A stretch of DNA of 64,000 nt, from contig NZ_JACHIG010000010.1 in NCBI RefSeq assembly GCF_014203095.1, positions 1-64,000 on the forward strand, given 5' to 3'. Positions 8,997 through 62,883 of this stretch are shown in pieces. The notes under the pieces are model-generated. The model made no database searches, was not told the DNA's origin, and worked only from the letters and a program-made list of their open reading frames with translations. How positions within the stretch are numbered: position 1 is the first letter of the stretch; each line of letters starts with the position of its first letter. Origin of the DNA: Prosthecobacter vanneervenii (GTDB lineage: Bacteria; Verrucomicrobiota; Verrucomicrobiia; Verrucomicrobiales; Verrucomicrobiaceae). A program made the translations under genes and the position numbers.

Positions 8997-10535
8997 ATGA
9001 AATTGAGTCGTTACCCATCTGCCGTCATTGCCCTTGCCTGCAGTGCCGGATTTTTGCACGCCGACGTCGTGACCCTCAAGGACGGCAAAAAGCTCGAAGG
9101 CAACATCCTTTCCGAGACGCCCACCTCCATCCGCATGAAGTACCGCCTCACACCCAAGATCTGGGATGAGCGCGAGTTTCAGCGCAGCGAGATCGCCGAA
9201 GGCGGCATCCTCAAGCAGAAGCCCGAAGAGGTGGAAATCCTCGAGCTCCGCAAGTTCAGCCCCACCCCGGACCTGATGACGGCTGAAAAGTACGAGCAGC
9301 TCATCCAGGACCGCCTGCGTCCGTTTGTGAACCGCTACCCCGGCACCAAGGAAGCCGCCGAGGTGGAAGAAATGATCAAAGTGGCACAGGAGGAGAAGGA
9401 AAAAGTGGTGGCCGGCGGCGCCAAGCTCGAAGGCAAATGGCTCTCCCGTGAAGAGGCCAAGGCCGAGGCCCTGAACATCAAGGCCTTCGGAATTGCCGCC
9501 GCACTCCATGAGAAGGCCGAAGCCAAAGACTACTCCGGCGCGCTCAAGGAGTTCGACAAGCTCACCGACCCCCGCACCGGACTTCCTGCCTCCATCTACT
9601 ACCCCAAGACCGTGGAGGAGATTCTTGGCGTGCTGAAGTCTTATGAGGGCCAGGTCAACCAGATGATCAGCAATCAGCCGACGCTGCAGAAAATGCGCGA
9701 AGACAGCACCAAGAAGCTGATCGAGCCCGACCTTTCACGCCTGAATGACGCCATCAAACGCGAAAAAGAAAACTGGAAGAACACCTTCGAAGAGGAACGC
9801 AAGGTCACCCGCTGGTTCACACCCTACAAGTACGACCTGGAAAGTCTCAAGGTGCTCGCCAAGACCATTACCGATGAGATTGACCGCCTCAAAGCCATCG
9901 ATCTTCCCAGCATCACCCGCGTAAATGCAGCCCTTGCCGAAGTCATGCGCGCAGATGCCAAAGCAGCGACTGACAGAGCAGCACTCCCCAAAATGGCGGA
10001 AGCCATCGTGGCAGGAGAGACGGCCGCGGCCACCGTCAATCCCAGCAGCAGAGAATTCTATCGCGCCTTCTTTGGCAGCTACCGCGAGCGCTACACCTAC
10101 TTCTCTCAGACGGTCGGTGCCGCCTCTGGACAAATGCAGCCTGCCGCAGCCGGCTCCGCTGGTGGCTCCTCCGCCATCGCAGGAACAGCCACTCCGACGA
10201 CGGATGACAAAGTGGCCGCCGCCTTGGCCGCTGCTACTGCACCGGCACAGCCTGCCGCTGCTCCCGCCGCACAACCCGGTGCTGCAGCTCCTGCTGCCAT
10301 GCCAGCGGCACAGCCTGGCGCTTATCCTCAGCAGGCTGGCTACCCGCAGCAACAGGCAGGTTATCCGCAGCAGCAGGCCGGCTATCCTCAAGGCTACACC
10401 CAGCCTCAGGCCGCCGCACCCGCTGCTGCCGCCGAAGAGGAAGGCATGGGCCTCATGACCATGATCTACATCGTCGTAGCCGTCGTGGCACTGGTGGTTC
10501 TGGGTGCCGTCCTTCTGAAAAAGAAGAAGAAGTAA
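8997..10535 (+). CDS. Secreted/anchored PTPDL-motif protein of unknown function
   Basis: The 512-residue protein starts with a signal peptide (MKLSRYPSAVIALACSAGFLHA) and a short domain DVVTLKDGKKLEGNIL. It contains FSPTPDLMTAEKYEQL near residue 90. I recall PTPDL as a motif of proteins confined to Verrucomicrobiae, but I could not check this. Residues about 100-370 look helical and charged. Residues about 375-480 are an alanine/proline/glutamine linker with repeats of AGYPQQ. A single transmembrane helix (MIYIVVAVVALVVLGAVLL) and a polylysine tail close the protein, so it is probably anchored with the C-terminus in the cytoplasm. A strong terminator follows. Confidence 0.75.
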   Translation: MKLSRYPSAVIALACSAGFLHADVVTLKDGKKLEGNILSETPTSIRMKYRLTPKIWDEREFQRSEIAEGGILKQKPEEVEILELRKFSPTPDLMTAEKYEQLIQDRLRPFVNRYPGTKEAAEVEEMIKVAQEEKEKVVAGGAKLEGKWLSREEAKAEALNIKAFGIAAALHEKAEAKDYSGALKEFDKLTDPRTGLPASIYYPKTVEEILGVLKSYEGQVNQMISNQPTLQKMREDSTKKLIEPDLSRLNDAIKREKENWKNTFEEERKVTRWFTPYKYDLESLKVLAKTITDEIDRLKAIDLPSITRVNAALAEVMRADAKAATDRAALPKMAEAIVAGETAAATVNPSSREFYRAFFGSYRERYTYFSQTVGAASGQMQPAAAGSAGGSSAIAGTATPTTDDKVAAALAAATAPAQPAAAPAAQPGAAAPAAMPAAQPGAYPQQAGYPQQQAGYPQQQAGYPQGYTQPQAAAPAAAAEEEGMGLMTMIYIVVAVVALVVLGAVLLKKKKK

Positions 10536-56407: not shown

Positions 56408-58042
56408 TTATTTCTTGGGCGGATTGGGCACGGTGCCGGCGGTGTATTCGGTTTGATCGATGGTGCCGCTGGCGTCCACGTCGCGGGCTTTGAACCAGGC
56501 GGCGGCATCGGCGGGGTCGCGTTTGGCGCTGAACTCTTCTTTGGTGAGCTTGCCGTCGTGGTCGGTGTCGAGGCGTTTGAACTGCTCGGCGCGGTTGGGG
56601 TTGTTTTTGGACTGGGCTTTGCCCTTGGCTTTGGCGTCTCCGGCGATGGGAAGGGGCAGGTAGTCGTAGTCGAGGATCATTTTCTTTTGCAGTGCGGTCT
56701 TGAGCTCGAGGGTGGCTGCCTCCAGGCCTTTCTGGCCGTAGAGATTGTGCAGCTCGGCGGGGTCTTCCTGGAGGTCGTAGAGCTCATAGACGGGGCGCGG
56801 GCTGGTGAACCAGAGGGTCTCGAACTCGGTGGCCAGGGTTTTGTCCTCGTGCGCCTTGGTGATGTCTTTCCAGCTGGGATCGCCGCCGCTGTCCACGGGG
56901 GTGTAGCGGAGGTTGGGGGTGACGTTGTAGATGAGCTTGTAGCGGGAGCTGCGCACGCAGCGGCTGTAGTCCACGCCACTGGCGGTGGTGCCTTCATTGA
57001 AGGTGGCGCTGCCGTGGGGGCCGCGCTCGGCGAAGATGTGCTGGCGCTCTTTTTCAAACTTGGCGCCTTTGAGCAGCGGGAGGAAGCTGATGCCGCTCAT
57101 GCGCTCTGGCACAGGGAGACCGGCGGCTTCGAGGCAGGTGGGGGCGATGTCTTCTCCGGAGATGAGCGCGCTGGAGTCGCCGCCGGGCTTGATGACGCCG
57201 GGCCACCAGGCGAGGAGGGGGACATTCAGGCCGGGATCGTGCAAGGAGCCTTTGCCACTGGGGAAGGCCATGCCGTTGTCTCCCATGAAAATGATGAGGG
57301 TGTTTTCCAAACCGGCGCGTTGTTTGACGAGGTCGAGCACGCGCTGGAAGTCGCCGTCGCAATGCTCTATCTCGCCTTCATAGGCGGAGAGATCATTGCG
57401 CACGCCGGGGAGATCGGGAAGGAAGCCGGGGACTTTGAGCTTGGCGGGATCGGGAGGATTTTTGCCGGTATTCCAGGCGTGGTGGGGATCGCTGAAGCCG
57501 ACCCAGAGGAAATAGGGCTTATCTTTCGGCTTCTGATCAAAGAACTCGTTAATCTTGGTGGGCAGGCTCTCCTGGCCGCTGGCGTCCACGTAGTCGAAGC
57601 GGTCTTTGAAGGTGACGAGGTGGTGCTCCTCAAAGACCTGTGACGAGGCCTCGGGGCTGCGACCTGAGCCATCGAGGTGATAGGTGCGACCGCAGCAGCC
57701 GACGAAGTAGCCCGCGTCTTTTTTGAGGATCTCGGGAAAGGTGATCTCATCTCGCGGAAGAGGCGAGGAGAAACGCGTCATGCGGCAGGCGACTGCGGAG
57801 CGGCCGGTCATGATGGTGGCGCGCGAGGGGACGCACTGCGGTGCGCCGGTGAACATGCGGCGGCACATGATGCCCTCTGCGGCAAAGCGGTCGAGGTTTG
57901 GCGTCTTCATCTCCTCGCGCCCATAGCAGTGGATGAAGGGGTAGCTGTGGTCGTCTGAGAGGACGAAGAGGATATTTGGCGGAGCCGCGAATGACGACTG
58001 CAGGATGCAGAAGAATGATAGAAGGAGGATGGCGGGGCGCAT
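56408..58042 (-). CDS. Secreted sulfatase with a C-terminal EF-hand pair
   Basis: The start at 58042 gives [20 protein letters not shown], a signal peptide. The 544-residue protein has [19 protein letters not shown] (metal aspartates), [11 protein letters not shown] (cysteine converted to formylglycine), FSDPHHAWN and [20 protein letters not shown]. The end (about residues 495-535) has two EF-hand loops, [12 protein letters not shown] and [13 protein letters not shown]. It hydrolyses sulfate esters, probably on polysaccharides. Its start codon lies 5 bp from the inverted repeat of the GxxExxY cassette, so its leader and ribosome binding site may come from the insertion. Confidence 0.92.
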
Positions 58043-58046
58043 GATA

Positions 58047-58549
58047 TTTTGAGGTTGGCCTACGGAAGGCACGGAATACACGGAAACCGGAGGGGCTGAG
58101 GTGAATTATTGATTGAGGAAGCGTTCGATTTGAACCTTGGGGTGGTGGCCGAAGTTGATGAACAGACCTAGTTTCATGTCCGTGGCCTTGAGGTAATTAA
58201 TGACCTGCGCCCGGTGCTCGTCAGTGAGATGAGGGACTGCTTTCAATTCGATGATGATCTTGTCAAAGCAGACGAGGTCCGGGATGAAAGTATGATGGAG
58301 CCTGCGGCCTTTGTATAGAAGCGGAAACTGCTGCTGCGCATCGAATGGAATGCCCTGCAACTCGAGCTCAGCCTCCAAGCACTCTTGATAAATAGGCTCT
58401 GTAAAACCACCGCCTTTTTCCTTGTAGACTTCAAAACAAGCACCTCGAATCCGAAAGCTCTCATCAGGAAAAATCAAATTGCTGCTCATGGGTCGCGATA
58501 AAAATCCTATTTCCGTGTGTTCCGTGCCTTCCGTAGGCCACCCTCAAAA
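58047..58549. mobile_element. GxxExxY cassette bounded by 40-bp inverted repeats
   Basis: The 40 bases at 58047-58086 and 58510-58549 are inverted copies with 38 identities. Each contains three 9-bp-spaced TTCCGT words (TTCCGTGTATTCCGTGCC, then TTCCGTAGG). They enclose 423 bp occupied by one gene on the minus strand. The unit lies between two sulfatase genes of one operon, 8 bp after one stop and 5 bp before the other start. No target duplication is obvious. Confidence 0.75.
58106..58489 (-). CDS. GxxExxY-family protein (PD-(D/E)XK-like fold)
   Basis: The 127-residue protein has the family's landmarks: IRGACFEVYKEKGGGFTEPI then YQECLEAELELQGIPF (G-F-T-E-x-x-Y), LLYKGRRLHHTFIPDLVCFD, IIIELKAVPHLTDEHRAQV and INYLKATDMKLGLFINFG. 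The D...E-x-K arrangement suggests a nuclease-like active site. Function is unknown. It is the only gene inside a pair of 40-bp inverted repeats, which suggests it travels as a small mobile unit. Confidence 0.88.
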   Translation of the reverse strand: MSSNLIFPDESFRIRGACFEVYKEKGGGFTEPIYQECLEAELELQGIPFDAQQQFPLLYKGRRLHHTFIPDLVCFDKIIIELKAVPHLTDEHRAQVINYLKATDMKLGLFINFGHHPKVQIERFLNQ

Positions 58550-58557
58550 CCAAAGTC

Positions 58558-60114
58558 TCATGGGAGCACGGGCCGGGGTTCGATATCGCTTTGATTGATC
58601 CATCCGGCTTTCATGGGCTTGCCGCTCATGAACTTCTCATAGAAGCCGACATTGGCCTTCATGGCGTGCTCGTATTTGTCGAAGACATCTCCCTGGCCGG
58701 ACATGCGGGGATCCCCCTGCTGGGAGAGCTCGGCGTGGAGCTGGGTTTTCAAGGCGGTGGCGCGGGGATCGGCAGGGAGGTTATGGACGAAATCGGGATC
58801 GGCTTTGAGATCGTAGAACTCGGTGCCGGGACGGAGGCCTAAGCAGAGCTGCCAGAAAGGGTCGGCGGGGTTTTTGCGGTGCGCATCAATAATGAAGGTC
58901 TTGGTAGCGCCGGCGTCGCAGTCCATGTAGCCGGTCTCGGGATTGCCGCCGGGCCAGCGGGTGGGCTCGAAGTTTTCAATGAAGACGCTGTCCTTGGTGA
59001 CGATGGCGCGGATGGGATAGCCCCAGTCGTGCGGGCGGCCGACGTCGGTGCGCTCCTTGCCGAGCAGGACGTGATCGCGCACATGGGCGGGCTTGGCGGC
59101 GAAGAGATCGGTGAGGCTGCGGCCGGGAGACTCGGCCATGCCAGTGTCTGACCACTTCATGCCCGCGACCTCGATGAGCGTGGGGGCGAGATCGACGAAG
59201 CTGACGAAATCGCTGAGCGTACGGCCGGGCTGGAGGATGCCTTTTTTCCACATCATGGCGAGGGGCACGTGATTGGCCTGCACGTTGGCGTTTCCCTTGC
59301 TGCGCGGGAAGGGCATGCCGTGGTCTGCGGTGACGATGATGAGGGTGTTGTCCAGCAGGCCACGCTTTTCGAGGTCGGCGATCATGCGGCCGAGATGGCG
59401 GTCGAAGTGCTCGACCTCGAAGGCGTAGTCGAGCATGTCATTGCGGATGACGTCGTTGTCCGGCCAGTAGGCGGGGACGTGGTCGATGTCCGTGAGCTTT
59501 TTGCCCCCCTTGGCGACGCCGCTGCCGAACTCGTAGCCACGATGCGGCTCGACGCTGCCATACCAGAAGCACCAGGGTTTGCCAGCAGGGGCGGCATCGA
59601 GGAAGTCGCTGAAATTGGCGGCGTAGTCGCAGTTCAGAATTTCGGGGGTGGGAGCTTCGGCGCGGCGTTTGTTATAGGGCTTGCCGGTCATCTGGCGGGG
59701 CTTGCCATTGGCGTCATTGGCCACGCCGGGGCCCCAGCCTTTGGTGGTGTAGCCGACGTTCCAACCTTTCTCCGCGAGGGCCTCGCCCCAGCCTTTGAAC
59801 TCGGGCGGGAAGTAGCAGATGTGATTGGCGGCTTCTTTGAGCTGCCAGGAGTTGCGACCGGTGAGGATGCAGGCGCGTGAGGGGGCGCACTTGGCATTGG
59901 GTGTGTAGGCCTGGCGGAACAGAAGGCCTTCTTTTGCGACGCGGTCGAAGTTGGGGGTCTTGACCCAGGGTGTGCCGTAGGCGCTGGCATGCGGGCCCCA
60001 GTCGTCGGCGATGGCGAAGAGGATGTTGGGCGGTGGCTCGGTGGCGAATGATGACGGACGAATGCCGAGTGCTGAGAGAACAAGGAGGCAGAGAAGGAAT
60101 GCAGGCTGACGCAT
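58558..60114 (-). CDS. Secreted sulfatase
   Basis: The 518-residue protein starts with a signal peptide ([20 protein letters not shown]) and has [32 protein letters not shown] (formylglycine motif), [17 protein letters not shown] and [21 protein letters not shown]-terminal [20 protein letters not shown] and [16 protein letters not shown] fit family arylsulfatases of this phylum. It begins a leftward operon that continues, past the GxxExxY cassette, with a second sulfatase, a jelly-roll protein and an NHL propeller. Confidence 0.92.
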
Positions 60115-62183: not shown

Positions 62184-62285
62184 CATGCCCAACGGGCATG
62201 CGTATTTAAGCCCAGGGTTCGCAAGAACCCTGGGGGCGTGAGTCACTACACCGTGCCATTTTCAGCGCAACCCCAACGGGGTTGC
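62184..62285. repeat. REP hairpin cluster, left of the transposase
   Basis: Three perfect hairpins follow each other: CATGCCC-AAC-GGGCATG (62184-62200), CCCAGGGTTC-GCAA-GAACCCTGGG (62211-62234) and GCAACCCC-AAC-GGGGTTGC (62267-62285). The second and third are repeated in mirror order on the other side of the transposase gene. Confidence 0.88.
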
Positions 62286-62314
62286 GTCCCTCGTCGCATG
62301 ATCCAGAATTCGTC

Positions 62315-62770
62315 ATGTCTCAGTCGATTGCCCGCGTTTTGATCCACACTGTCTTTTCTACCAAAGACCGAGAGCCAGCTTTCCACGACGCGGCTTTTCG
62401 TTCCGAGGTACACTCTTATCTTGGTGGATGTGCCAAGGCATTGGACTGTCTTCCCATCCAGATCGGAGGTGTCGCGGATCACATCCACTTGCTGACCACG
62501 TTATCGCGCACCATTGCCATGGCGGAATTCGTCAAGGAGATCAAACGCGTGTTCTGCAATTGGATTCAGGAGCGCGGCGGCATGTTCCGCCAGTTCCACT
62601 GGCAGGCTGGATACGGCTGCTTTTCGGTATCTGAATCCCGTTCAGCTGCCGTGGTTCGATACATCGAGAAACAGGAGGAGCATCATCGGAAAATCACCTT
62701 TCAAGACGAGTATCGTGAACTGCTCAGACGCCATAACCAGAGATGGGATGAGGCGTATGTTTGGGGGTAA
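62315..62770 (+). CDS. REP-associated tyrosine transposase (RAYT, IS200/Y1 family)
   Basis: The start at 62315 (MSQSIARVLIHTVFSTKDRE) gives 151 residues. HUH-type metal motif is DHIHLLTTLSR, followed by MAEFVKEIKRVFCNWIQERG, FHWQAGYGCFSVSESRSAAV and the catalytic tyrosine in RYIEKQEEHHRKITFQDEYR. These single-strand-specific enzymes mobilise REP palindromes. The gene is flanked on both sides by REP hairpins in mirror order, the classical RAYT arrangement, and related elements are scattered through the window. Confidence 0.92.
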   Translation: MSQSIARVLIHTVFSTKDREPAFHDAAFRSEVHSYLGGCAKALDCLPIQIGGVADHIHLLTTLSRTIAMAEFVKEIKRVFCNWIQERGGMFRQFHWQAGYGCFSVSESRSAAVVRYIEKQEEHHRKITFQDEYRELLRRHNQRWDEAYVWG

Positions 62771-62784
62771 TTGCGGCGATGGAC

Positions 62785-62883
62785 GCAACCCCGCTGGGGT
62801 TGCACCATGACAAACGATGTGGCTTGCTCTTATCCCAGGGTTCTGCGAACCCTGGGCTTAAATACGGAAGGCCGTTGGCCTTC
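62785..62883. repeat. REP hairpin cluster, right of the transposase
   Basis: GCAACCCC-GCT-GGGGTTGC (62785-62803), CCCAGGGTTC-TGC-GAACCCTGGG (62834-62856) and GAAGGCC-GTT-GGCCTTC (62867-62883). The connector CTTAAATACGG after the second hairpin is the complement of GTATTTAAG before the matching hairpin on the left. Confidence 0.88.

Follow-up and report, generated by a model that had tools for sequence, protein, structure and literature searches.

Inverted triplets of a seven-base word around a GxxExxY gene of Prosthecobacter vanneervenii, and their counterparts at other GxxExxY loci

REPINs are hairpin-forming short inverted repeats with spread gene-less copies, and REPtrons comprise one small protein gene that is flanked by such repeats and has co-evolved with them, as far as the cited parts of the respective papers describe it (PMC3116915, PMC8266576, PMC3733652). 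Intervening sequences (IVS) of 23S rRNA are cut out by RNase III. In the cited part of a study on Coxiella, these IVS are described as an S23p ORF between inverted repeats within the 23S rRNA and are termed selfish, and an old proposal is reported according to which the S23p ORF serves mobility (PMC4990558). For Rickettsia, palindromic elements able to insert in frame in protein genes are described (PMC10969869, passage cited), and for Beggiatoaceae arrays of a heptamer, the TAACTGA repeats, many of which are situated near start codons (PMC4679880, passage cited).

Organization of the cassette and its protein

The locus described here is part of the window, i.e., the whole analysed stretch of 64,000 nucleotides of Prosthecobacter vanneervenii (contig NZ_JACHIG010000010.1, positions 1 to 64,000). 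A sequence-only reading of this stretch had described a nuclease-fold-like GxxExxY gene as the only gene between two inverted arms of 38/40 identity, each carrying TTCCGT three times with a spacing of 9 bp. All of this is borne out (Table 1): the identity is found after reverse-complementing one arm, and the word starts confirm the spacing. From outside to inside, each arm reads TACGGAA, CACGGAA, CACGGAA (TTCCGT being the reading of the other strand). The arms reach an inverted-repeat score of 70; a repeat-finding run stretches them to 45 nt with 91% identity (58047-58091 / 58505-58549) and lists no other inverted repeat of at least 12 nt in 57900-58700. Concerning the neighbouring sulfatases, which are co-directional with the GxxExxY gene, the distance of 8 bp between the right arm and the upstream stop codon had been given correctly, whereas the likely ATG of the downstream sulfatase is situated 4 bp, not 5 bp, from the left arm. 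GGCC and the three left-arm words recur in the relatives L098, L101, and L038, and the outer part of the left arm, TTTTGAGGTT, is not seen there. The 6.66-Mb genome contains the triple-TTCCGT pattern (at most 2 mismatches) at 14 places, compared to one for a reversed control.

Table 1. Positions of the cassette parts and of the adjacent host genes in the window
Feature	Position	Strand	Basis or remark
Left inverted arm, 40 bp	58047..58086	+	38/40 to right arm
Word 1, TACGGAA (CACGGAA variant)	58061..58067	+	
Word 2, CACGGAA	58070..58076	+	
Word 3, CACGGAA	58079..58085	+	
GxxExxY gene, 127 aa, predicted PD-(D/E)XK nuclease fold	58106..58489	-	TIGR04256 / PF13366, conservation, AlphaFold model
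Right inverted arm, 40 bp	58510..58549	-	38/40 to left arm
Right-arm words TTCCGTG 58511-58517, TTCCGTG 58520-58526, TTCCGTA 58529-58535	58511..58535	-	
Upstream sulfatase, host gene outside cassette	58558..60114	-	PF00884; stop codon 58558-58560
Downstream sulfatase, host gene	56408..58042	-	PF00884; likely ATG 58040-58042

The protein matches TIGR04256 GxxExxY with 138 bits (cut-off 35) and PF13366 PDDEXK_3 with 137.6 bits (cut-off 22). G28, E31, and Y34 as well as D71, E81, and K83 are invariant or at least 90% conserved (12 and 78 sequences). In a Foldseek search with the AlphaFold model (mean pLDDT 93), the best solved structure was SSO0001 (4ic1; E 3.5e-4, 14-16% identity), which we take to be a Cas4 protein, followed by lambda exonuclease (E 2.9e-3); VIA-align gave Z 9.3 over 99 residues for 4ic1 (rmsd 3.5), and the restriction-fold proteins that followed did not exceed 7.8. 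The model thus supports a fold of the nuclease type and implies no particular function. Among named sequences, the gene has its closest relatives on Verrucomicrobiaceae and Prosthecobacter contigs. Members of the family, frequently more than one per genome, occur in 100/141 genomes of the order and in 163/288 of the phylum sample.

Profile searches returned only PDDEXK_3 and GxxExxY for the window protein, and neither a Y1/HUH REP-associated transposase domain nor a DDE/DDD, HUH or serine/tyrosine recombinase domain. A defence gene was rejected, the best PADLOC match (PDC-M36A) reaching only E 0.012 and 12.5 bits, and a phage origin found no support either: the protein has no match among 50,697 phage records at E 1e-3, and no PHROG. 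The plasmid search yielded eight records, every one predicted to be non-mobilizable. Concerning known RNA families, no match was above the gathering score, and two were at chance level.

Despite the general similarity to a REPtron, which according to the passages cited above extends to inverted-repeat hairpins, gene-less copies, a single flanked gene, and a coupling of protein and repeat, there are differences. Dispersed gene-less repeat doublets, by which REPtrons are in part defined, are present in the same genome. The window gene, however, encodes a protein of the PD-(D/E)XK nuclease type without HUH/Y1 domain, and the cassette repeat lines up three copies of a 7-bp word in tandem, with free spacers, whereas that of a REPtron is one imperfect palindrome. 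GTAG, the REPtron tag, is contained in the window arms (CCGTAGG) but missing from many other cassette arms, such as those of L019, L020, and L033. The cassette would work like a REPtron without being one, as it lacks the defining HUH transposase and GTAG is not found throughout. Equally, the recombinase or transposase domain of a classical insertion sequence is lacking.

With the IVS of 23S rRNA, as they appear in the part of PMC4990558 cited above, the cassette shares one small ORF between inverted repeats, but it is situated between sulfatases, its ORF belongs to PDDEXK_3 and not to PF05635, and its words are different. Cas4 and lambda-exonuclease-like nucleases resemble the protein in the predicted fold and the D-E-K motif; compared to SSO0001, it shares only 14-16% of residues, has 127 instead of about 203 residues, and stands alone in its cassette. 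The TAACTGA repeats are likewise arrays of heptamers, but a single word is repeated in direct orientation, with one reported case of inversion, and no nuclease is mentioned in the searched text of that paper (PMC4679880, in part). In the open-licence texts of PubMed Central, neither a description of the element (which subscription papers or preprints could hold), nor a full-text match to the word-array strings, nor a functional study of the GxxExxY family was found; in a passage of one open-access paper, GxxExxY appears as an annotation label. The present results provide this family with a genomic context and a testable role.

Arms and words at other GxxExxY loci

Loci were drawn from the same order, the same phylum, and named genomes of many phyla, and 210 gene places were scored. 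Those of the order and the phylum represent the top of bit-score lists (100 places plus the picks of the tool), such that degenerate members are under-represented. Matches weaker than E 1e-15, second fragments of five genes, six places without 150 bp of flank, and three repeats of the window gene had been left out beforehand; L101 and L176, which are the same locus, were both kept.

An inverted repeat with a local score of at least 36, a measure that presumes no word, flanks 142/210 GxxExxY places but only 2/749 control ORFs, all of them more than 1.2 kb away from any gene of the GxxExxY or four-helix-bundle type. Among the other places (68/210), some possess decayed or divergent arms and others may have none. 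Strict inward triplets, i.e., one word three times per arm, are present at 108/210 places compared to 1/282 control ORFs, and on the contigs of these 282 controls at 19/49 GxxExxY places. Outward triplets exist at 31/210 places and at three of the 282 controls, two of these three being four-helix-bundle genes.

A word could be called at 143/210 places (no call at 67/210), and the 131 words with copies on both arms comprise 40 different ones. The form C-R-C-N-R-A-N is exhibited by 108/131 (CACGGAA, CACTAAT, CACAGAG, CGCAGAT, CGCCAAG, CACGAAG, and others), a grammar partly built in by the word caller, which favours.RC..R., and by the register step, which favours CRC.RA.; the largest word group outside this form is (N)ACAGGAT. 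The longest run consists of three words in 182/259 arms, mostly with a spacing of 8 to 11 bp. Both arms of a locus have the same pair of spacings at 76/86 loci, whereas across loci this holds for 180/420 pairs with the same word and 1374/6890 pairs with different words. The commonest bases ahead of the first word are TTAAC. The TTCCGT arms, for which a search at other GxxExxY genes had been proposed, thus recur in their design rather than in their letters: only 15/131 words are CACGGAA, but inverted triplets of a 7-bp word are common. Likewise, unrelated flanks elsewhere, which had been named as the observation that would speak against the cassette, are found insofar as the words differ among loci, yet the grammar is common and the word follows the protein lineage.

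Six of the eight plasmid matches were fetched. The plasmid of Bacteroides finegoldii carries a textbook cassette with TTCACCACAGAGGACGCAGAGGACACGGAGG ahead of the gene; that of Bernardetia has a weaker arm pair, that of Sphingomonas an array on one side only, that of Gemmatirosa a triplet hairpin of the CGCGGAT type downstream, and that of Treponema one word on each side. On the plasmid of Fusobacteria bacterium ZRK30 (L342), both GxxExxY flanks contain an identical 22-bp CAGATTTAATCCGTGTACCTAT in direct, not inverted, orientation.

Concerning the relation of word and protein, the proportion of pairs with the same word rises with protein identity from 0.4% (30-40% identity) to 3% (40-50), 16% (50-60), 34% (60-70), and 82% (70-80; 39 pairs). 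The Mantel correlation is r -0.39 (permutation sd 0.025) for the 127 loci that were left for this test and the tree after exclusion of the doubtful words of L136, L163, L129, and L220. The protein tree requires 64 changes of the word (shuffle mean 101; the lowest of 300 shuffles gave 94) and 11 of its last base (shuffle mean 51, minimum 45; 124 rows). The word CACGAAA is shared across phyla: it occurs beside L033, L156, and L175 from the window's order or phylum sample and beside L183 (Nitrosomonadales), L184 (Hydrogenedentota), and L185 (Bacteroidetes).

Such coupling could be due to simple descent, the arms and the gene being linked. At 60-70% protein identity, however, per-base identity is 81% in words, 41% in spacers, and 27% in outside and inside flanks, the baseline for words being 56% at 30-40% protein identity, as raised by the common grammar and the imposed register. 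Since the words are kept and the equally linked spacers and flanks are not, we infer from these sequence comparisons that the words are under a selection that keeps pace with the GxxExxY protein. Covariation between single residues and word bases, paired on the tree, was not significant in any of 943 tests (best raw p 0.0018).

Terminators can take the form of intergenic inverted repeats, and repeats of this ordinary type, or chance, around a small gene might be considered as an explanation of the arms. The contrast between 142/210 and 2/749, together with the coupling of word and protein, renders this hardly conceivable, and it is rejected.

Empty sites, occupied sites, and hairpins without a gene

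Empty sites in relatives, for which a search had been proposed, do exist. In four genomes of the same genus (L231, L232, L234, and L235), the orthologous sulfatase pair is present without insert, the downstream sulfatase being 88-92% identical to that of the window. As read from the sequence, the upstream stop codon overlaps the downstream start codon as ATGA at all four empty sites, whereas in the window the element follows directly after ATGA, and the downstream sulfatase starts anew beyond it. L237 possesses another insert of about 1.1 kb (about 400-1560) at the same junction; the other loci of the 30 had no match above 80% to the downstream sulfatase within the stretch examined.

The close gene relatives at L176/L101 and L177 adjoin a different, conserved large gene, and at L098, L178, and L038 the GxxExxY gene likewise stands beside this large downstream gene. 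In the window genome, the large gene and its upstream neighbour are about 11 bp apart, with no cassette between them. Opposite occupancy at two sites within one protein lineage is expected of a mobile unit, differential loss at both sites being the alternative. A target-site duplication was not evident by eye at the window, L001, and L002 sites, the flanks being too diverged, and no excision product was found; both may speak against an explanation by a mobile element. The two flanks of the window cassette are each similar to the beginning of the downstream gene (ATGAGA.. / ATGCGC..), perhaps owing to an old duplication or to a re-made start codon.

The window genome furthermore contains short hairpins with the same words but without a gene. 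One of these, of 68 bp (L001), is situated in frame inside a protein gene, in which it is similar to Rickettsia palindromic elements and MITEs; the word of the cassettes, however, links its hairpins to a resident gene lineage, and for the Rickettsia elements we know of no partner gene. Among 22 relatives with both flanks, the L001 place is empty in 17 and holds other inserts in five. In these five orthologues (L281, L283, L287, L290, and L292), varied palindromic or repeat inserts occupy the same place, namely a CACGGAA hairpin in L281, a CGCAGAT hairpin in L292, and three of other kinds. At L176 (about 10450-10530), a hairpin word array apparently codes for part of the signal-peptide-like start of the next protein (..LSAYSVCSVGQLSAADLFDK..), possibly a repeat arm taken into a host protein. 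Tandem-word hairpins of the ACTTCTCCA and GTTTCCA types, with no obvious gene, are found at L310 11180-12730 and L328 8100-9000.

Another reading would be homing, in which solo hairpins would be empty targets that the nuclease cuts and into which repair copies the gene-bearing form. Although the arms are common to both forms and a nuclease-type fold would suit a cutter, we regard homing as very unlikely: both readable empty sites are without any hairpin, such that insertion into bare sites must occur, and at L010, L018, L028, L098, and L101 the gene has a complete hairpin on both sides, an arrangement not expected from homing into a hairpin loop.

The solo hairpins L001, L002, and L281 fold strongly compared to shuffles (z -5.7, -10.2, and -6.2, with DNA parameters). 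This folding would also suit an element acting at the level of RNA, with arrays that fold in the operon transcript, a protein that binds its own hairpin for processing or autoregulation, and spread as a secondary matter. The neighbours are co-directional in the window and in 5/5 annotated plasmid examples, in agreement with such an element, and the S23p ORF of IVS elements stands between inverted repeats as well (PMC4990558, in the part cited). Between the arms of one locus, however, spacers match at 190/318 bases and words at 2091/2268, which argues that perfect pairing is not what is kept, and the predicted restriction/Cas4-type fold would favour DNA. An RNA-level element is therefore considered rather improbable.

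For 141 genomes of the order, the distribution of hairpins was compared to that of the genes. CACTAAT arrays, sought with a fixed step of 11 bp such that copies with other spacings would be missed, occur in 6/7 genomes with an L010-type gene (at least 71% identity) and in 2/134 others (p 2e-8); inside the genus the counts are 6/7 and 2/24 (p 2.5e-4). Across the order, a cut-off of at least 62% identity gives 6/17 and 2/124. CACGGAA arrays are present in 16/20 genomes with a relative of the window gene of at least 52% identity and in 30/121 others (p 4e-6); for all cut-offs applied between 48 and 60%, the p value of this link does not exceed 6e-4, but the link is not significant within the window genus (8/8 versus 16/23, p 0.15). 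Genomes without any GxxExxY match contain CACGGAA arrays in 3/41 cases, compared to 43/100 with one. The cut-offs of 71% and 52% were set after the lists had been seen, other cut-offs pointing in the same direction, and the close relatives do not include a fragment of 57 residues in G035 (70% identical). Repeats without GxxExxY, an equal frequency of which had been named as evidence against a tie between the two, are hence real in the form of gene-less short hairpins, but the CACTAAT hairpins still follow their own gene lineage. The form of a compact mobile cassette, as claimed earlier, is supported by the empty sites in four relatives, the site with reversed occupancy, and the gene-less repeat copies.

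Other cargo and a possible mode of spread

Concerning other genes between inverted word arrays, four of the five TIGR02436 genes in the window genome are situated between strong ones (scores 41-62), and the fifth (L014) has only a weak inverted repeat (21); two that were checked by profile are both PF05635 23S-rRNA-IVP. Among distinct four-helix-bundle genes with 150 bp of flank, 6/8 score at least 36, and L048, with a shorter flank, exhibits CCAATGT arrays on both sides of such a gene. The 23S-rRNA-IVP-type genes of L012, L013, L015, L016, L048, and L213 stand between inverted arrays of words of their own (for example GTTTGCG, GATTTA(T/C), CCAATGT, and GGTTGA).

In 768,523 bp of GxxExxY-bearing contigs, 12 inverted canonical-type word pairs enclose nothing and 11 enclose GxxExxY (8 distinct genes), with no other cargo inside such pairs. 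In 800,000 bp of the window genome, composed of hand-picked stretches, 45 arrays were found compared to 8 in one 3-mer shuffle; the inverted pairs among them are three CACTAAT hairpins, two of which flank the L010 gene, and one pair around an ORF of 149 aa. This cysteine-rich ORF, without Pfam match, is situated between inverted TTTTGCTGGTT arrays (L304 16870-17610) and may represent a third type of cargo. A looser survey with any word gave 42 GxxExxY, two four-helix-bundle, and 11 other cases; five of the latter (L229, L260, L293, L295, and L297) were taken as GxxExxY loci by origin, and in the remaining six (L180, L215, L227, L304, L310, and L333), whose ORFs were read, no cassette was established except for the candidate in L304.

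As TIGR02436 genes share the cassette design with other words, GxxExxY may be either cargo or mobiliser, both of which the earlier reading had considered; four-helix-bundle cassettes of the same design weaken the claim of a nuclease as mobiliser and at the same time widen the finding. The hairpin itself might be the mobile unit, moved by another activity, with GxxExxY as cargo or as a controller that restrains, resolves or stabilises the words. This would account for hairpins without a gene, for the arrays of the same design around four-helix-bundle genes of the 23S-rRNA-IVP type, and for CACGGAA arrays kept in some genomes without the gene. We nevertheless regard it as unlikely: the word follows the GxxExxY lineage, and CACTAAT hairpins occur mainly where the gene lineage belonging to them is present, which suggests that the gene is somehow needed for, or selective on, the word.

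On balance, the cassette is probably a miniature mobile element similar to the REPIN/RAYT system, with a Cas4-like nuclease as partner that recognises its own word. The ends of this element would be formed by a 7-bp word (here CACGGAA, outermost TACGGAA) in two inverted triplets, and its single gene would encode the Cas4-like PD-(D/E)XK nuclease recognising the word in these ends, either in duplex DNA or in a folded single strand. We infer word binding, cleavage, and movement driven by the protein: the nuclease might help the element to be cut or copied to new sites, among which the seam of two co-directional genes would permit transcription by the host operon. Gene-less hairpins with the same word would be non-autonomous copies of the element, comparable to REPINs in their relation to RAYT transposases. 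PD-(D/E)XK enzymes hydrolyse DNA, and we know of none that alone transposes an element. As such a nuclease would be without strand-transfer chemistry, host repair or replication is a likely helper for joining at the new site. Four-helix-bundle genes and the L304 ORF being packaged in the same way, the design does not require this nuclease. If the protein drives movement, a mobile element would rest on a single PD-(D/E)XK nuclease.

More tentatively, the cassettes may constitute a class of bacterial mobile DNA in which a lone Cas4-like nuclease of 120 residues and the inverted triplet of a 7-bp word evolve as lock and key: the word would be lineage-specific within C-R-C-N-R-A-N, its six copies changing together, and a unit of about 500 bp would cross phyla and leave word-matched hairpins that can enter host proteins, with a sister class of 23S-rRNA-IVP-type proteins and other words. 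If this is true, the old rRNA intervening sequences would be one special case of a general element. The four-helix-bundle cassettes make the spread of these intervening sequences directly testable. The cassettes furthermore link a class of dispersed bacterial repeats to a resident gene, and the 131 calls with 40 words provide a natural series of nuclease/word pairs from which a recognition code could be read.

A different arrangement is found elsewhere in the window (62189-62878), where a Y1 (IS200-like) transposase gene (62282-62770) is accompanied by two nested inverted repeats, 62189-62223/62844-62878 and 62267-62298/62772-62803, both of 91% identity. It resembles the TIR-flanked tyrosine transposases described in the cited part of PMC3733652.
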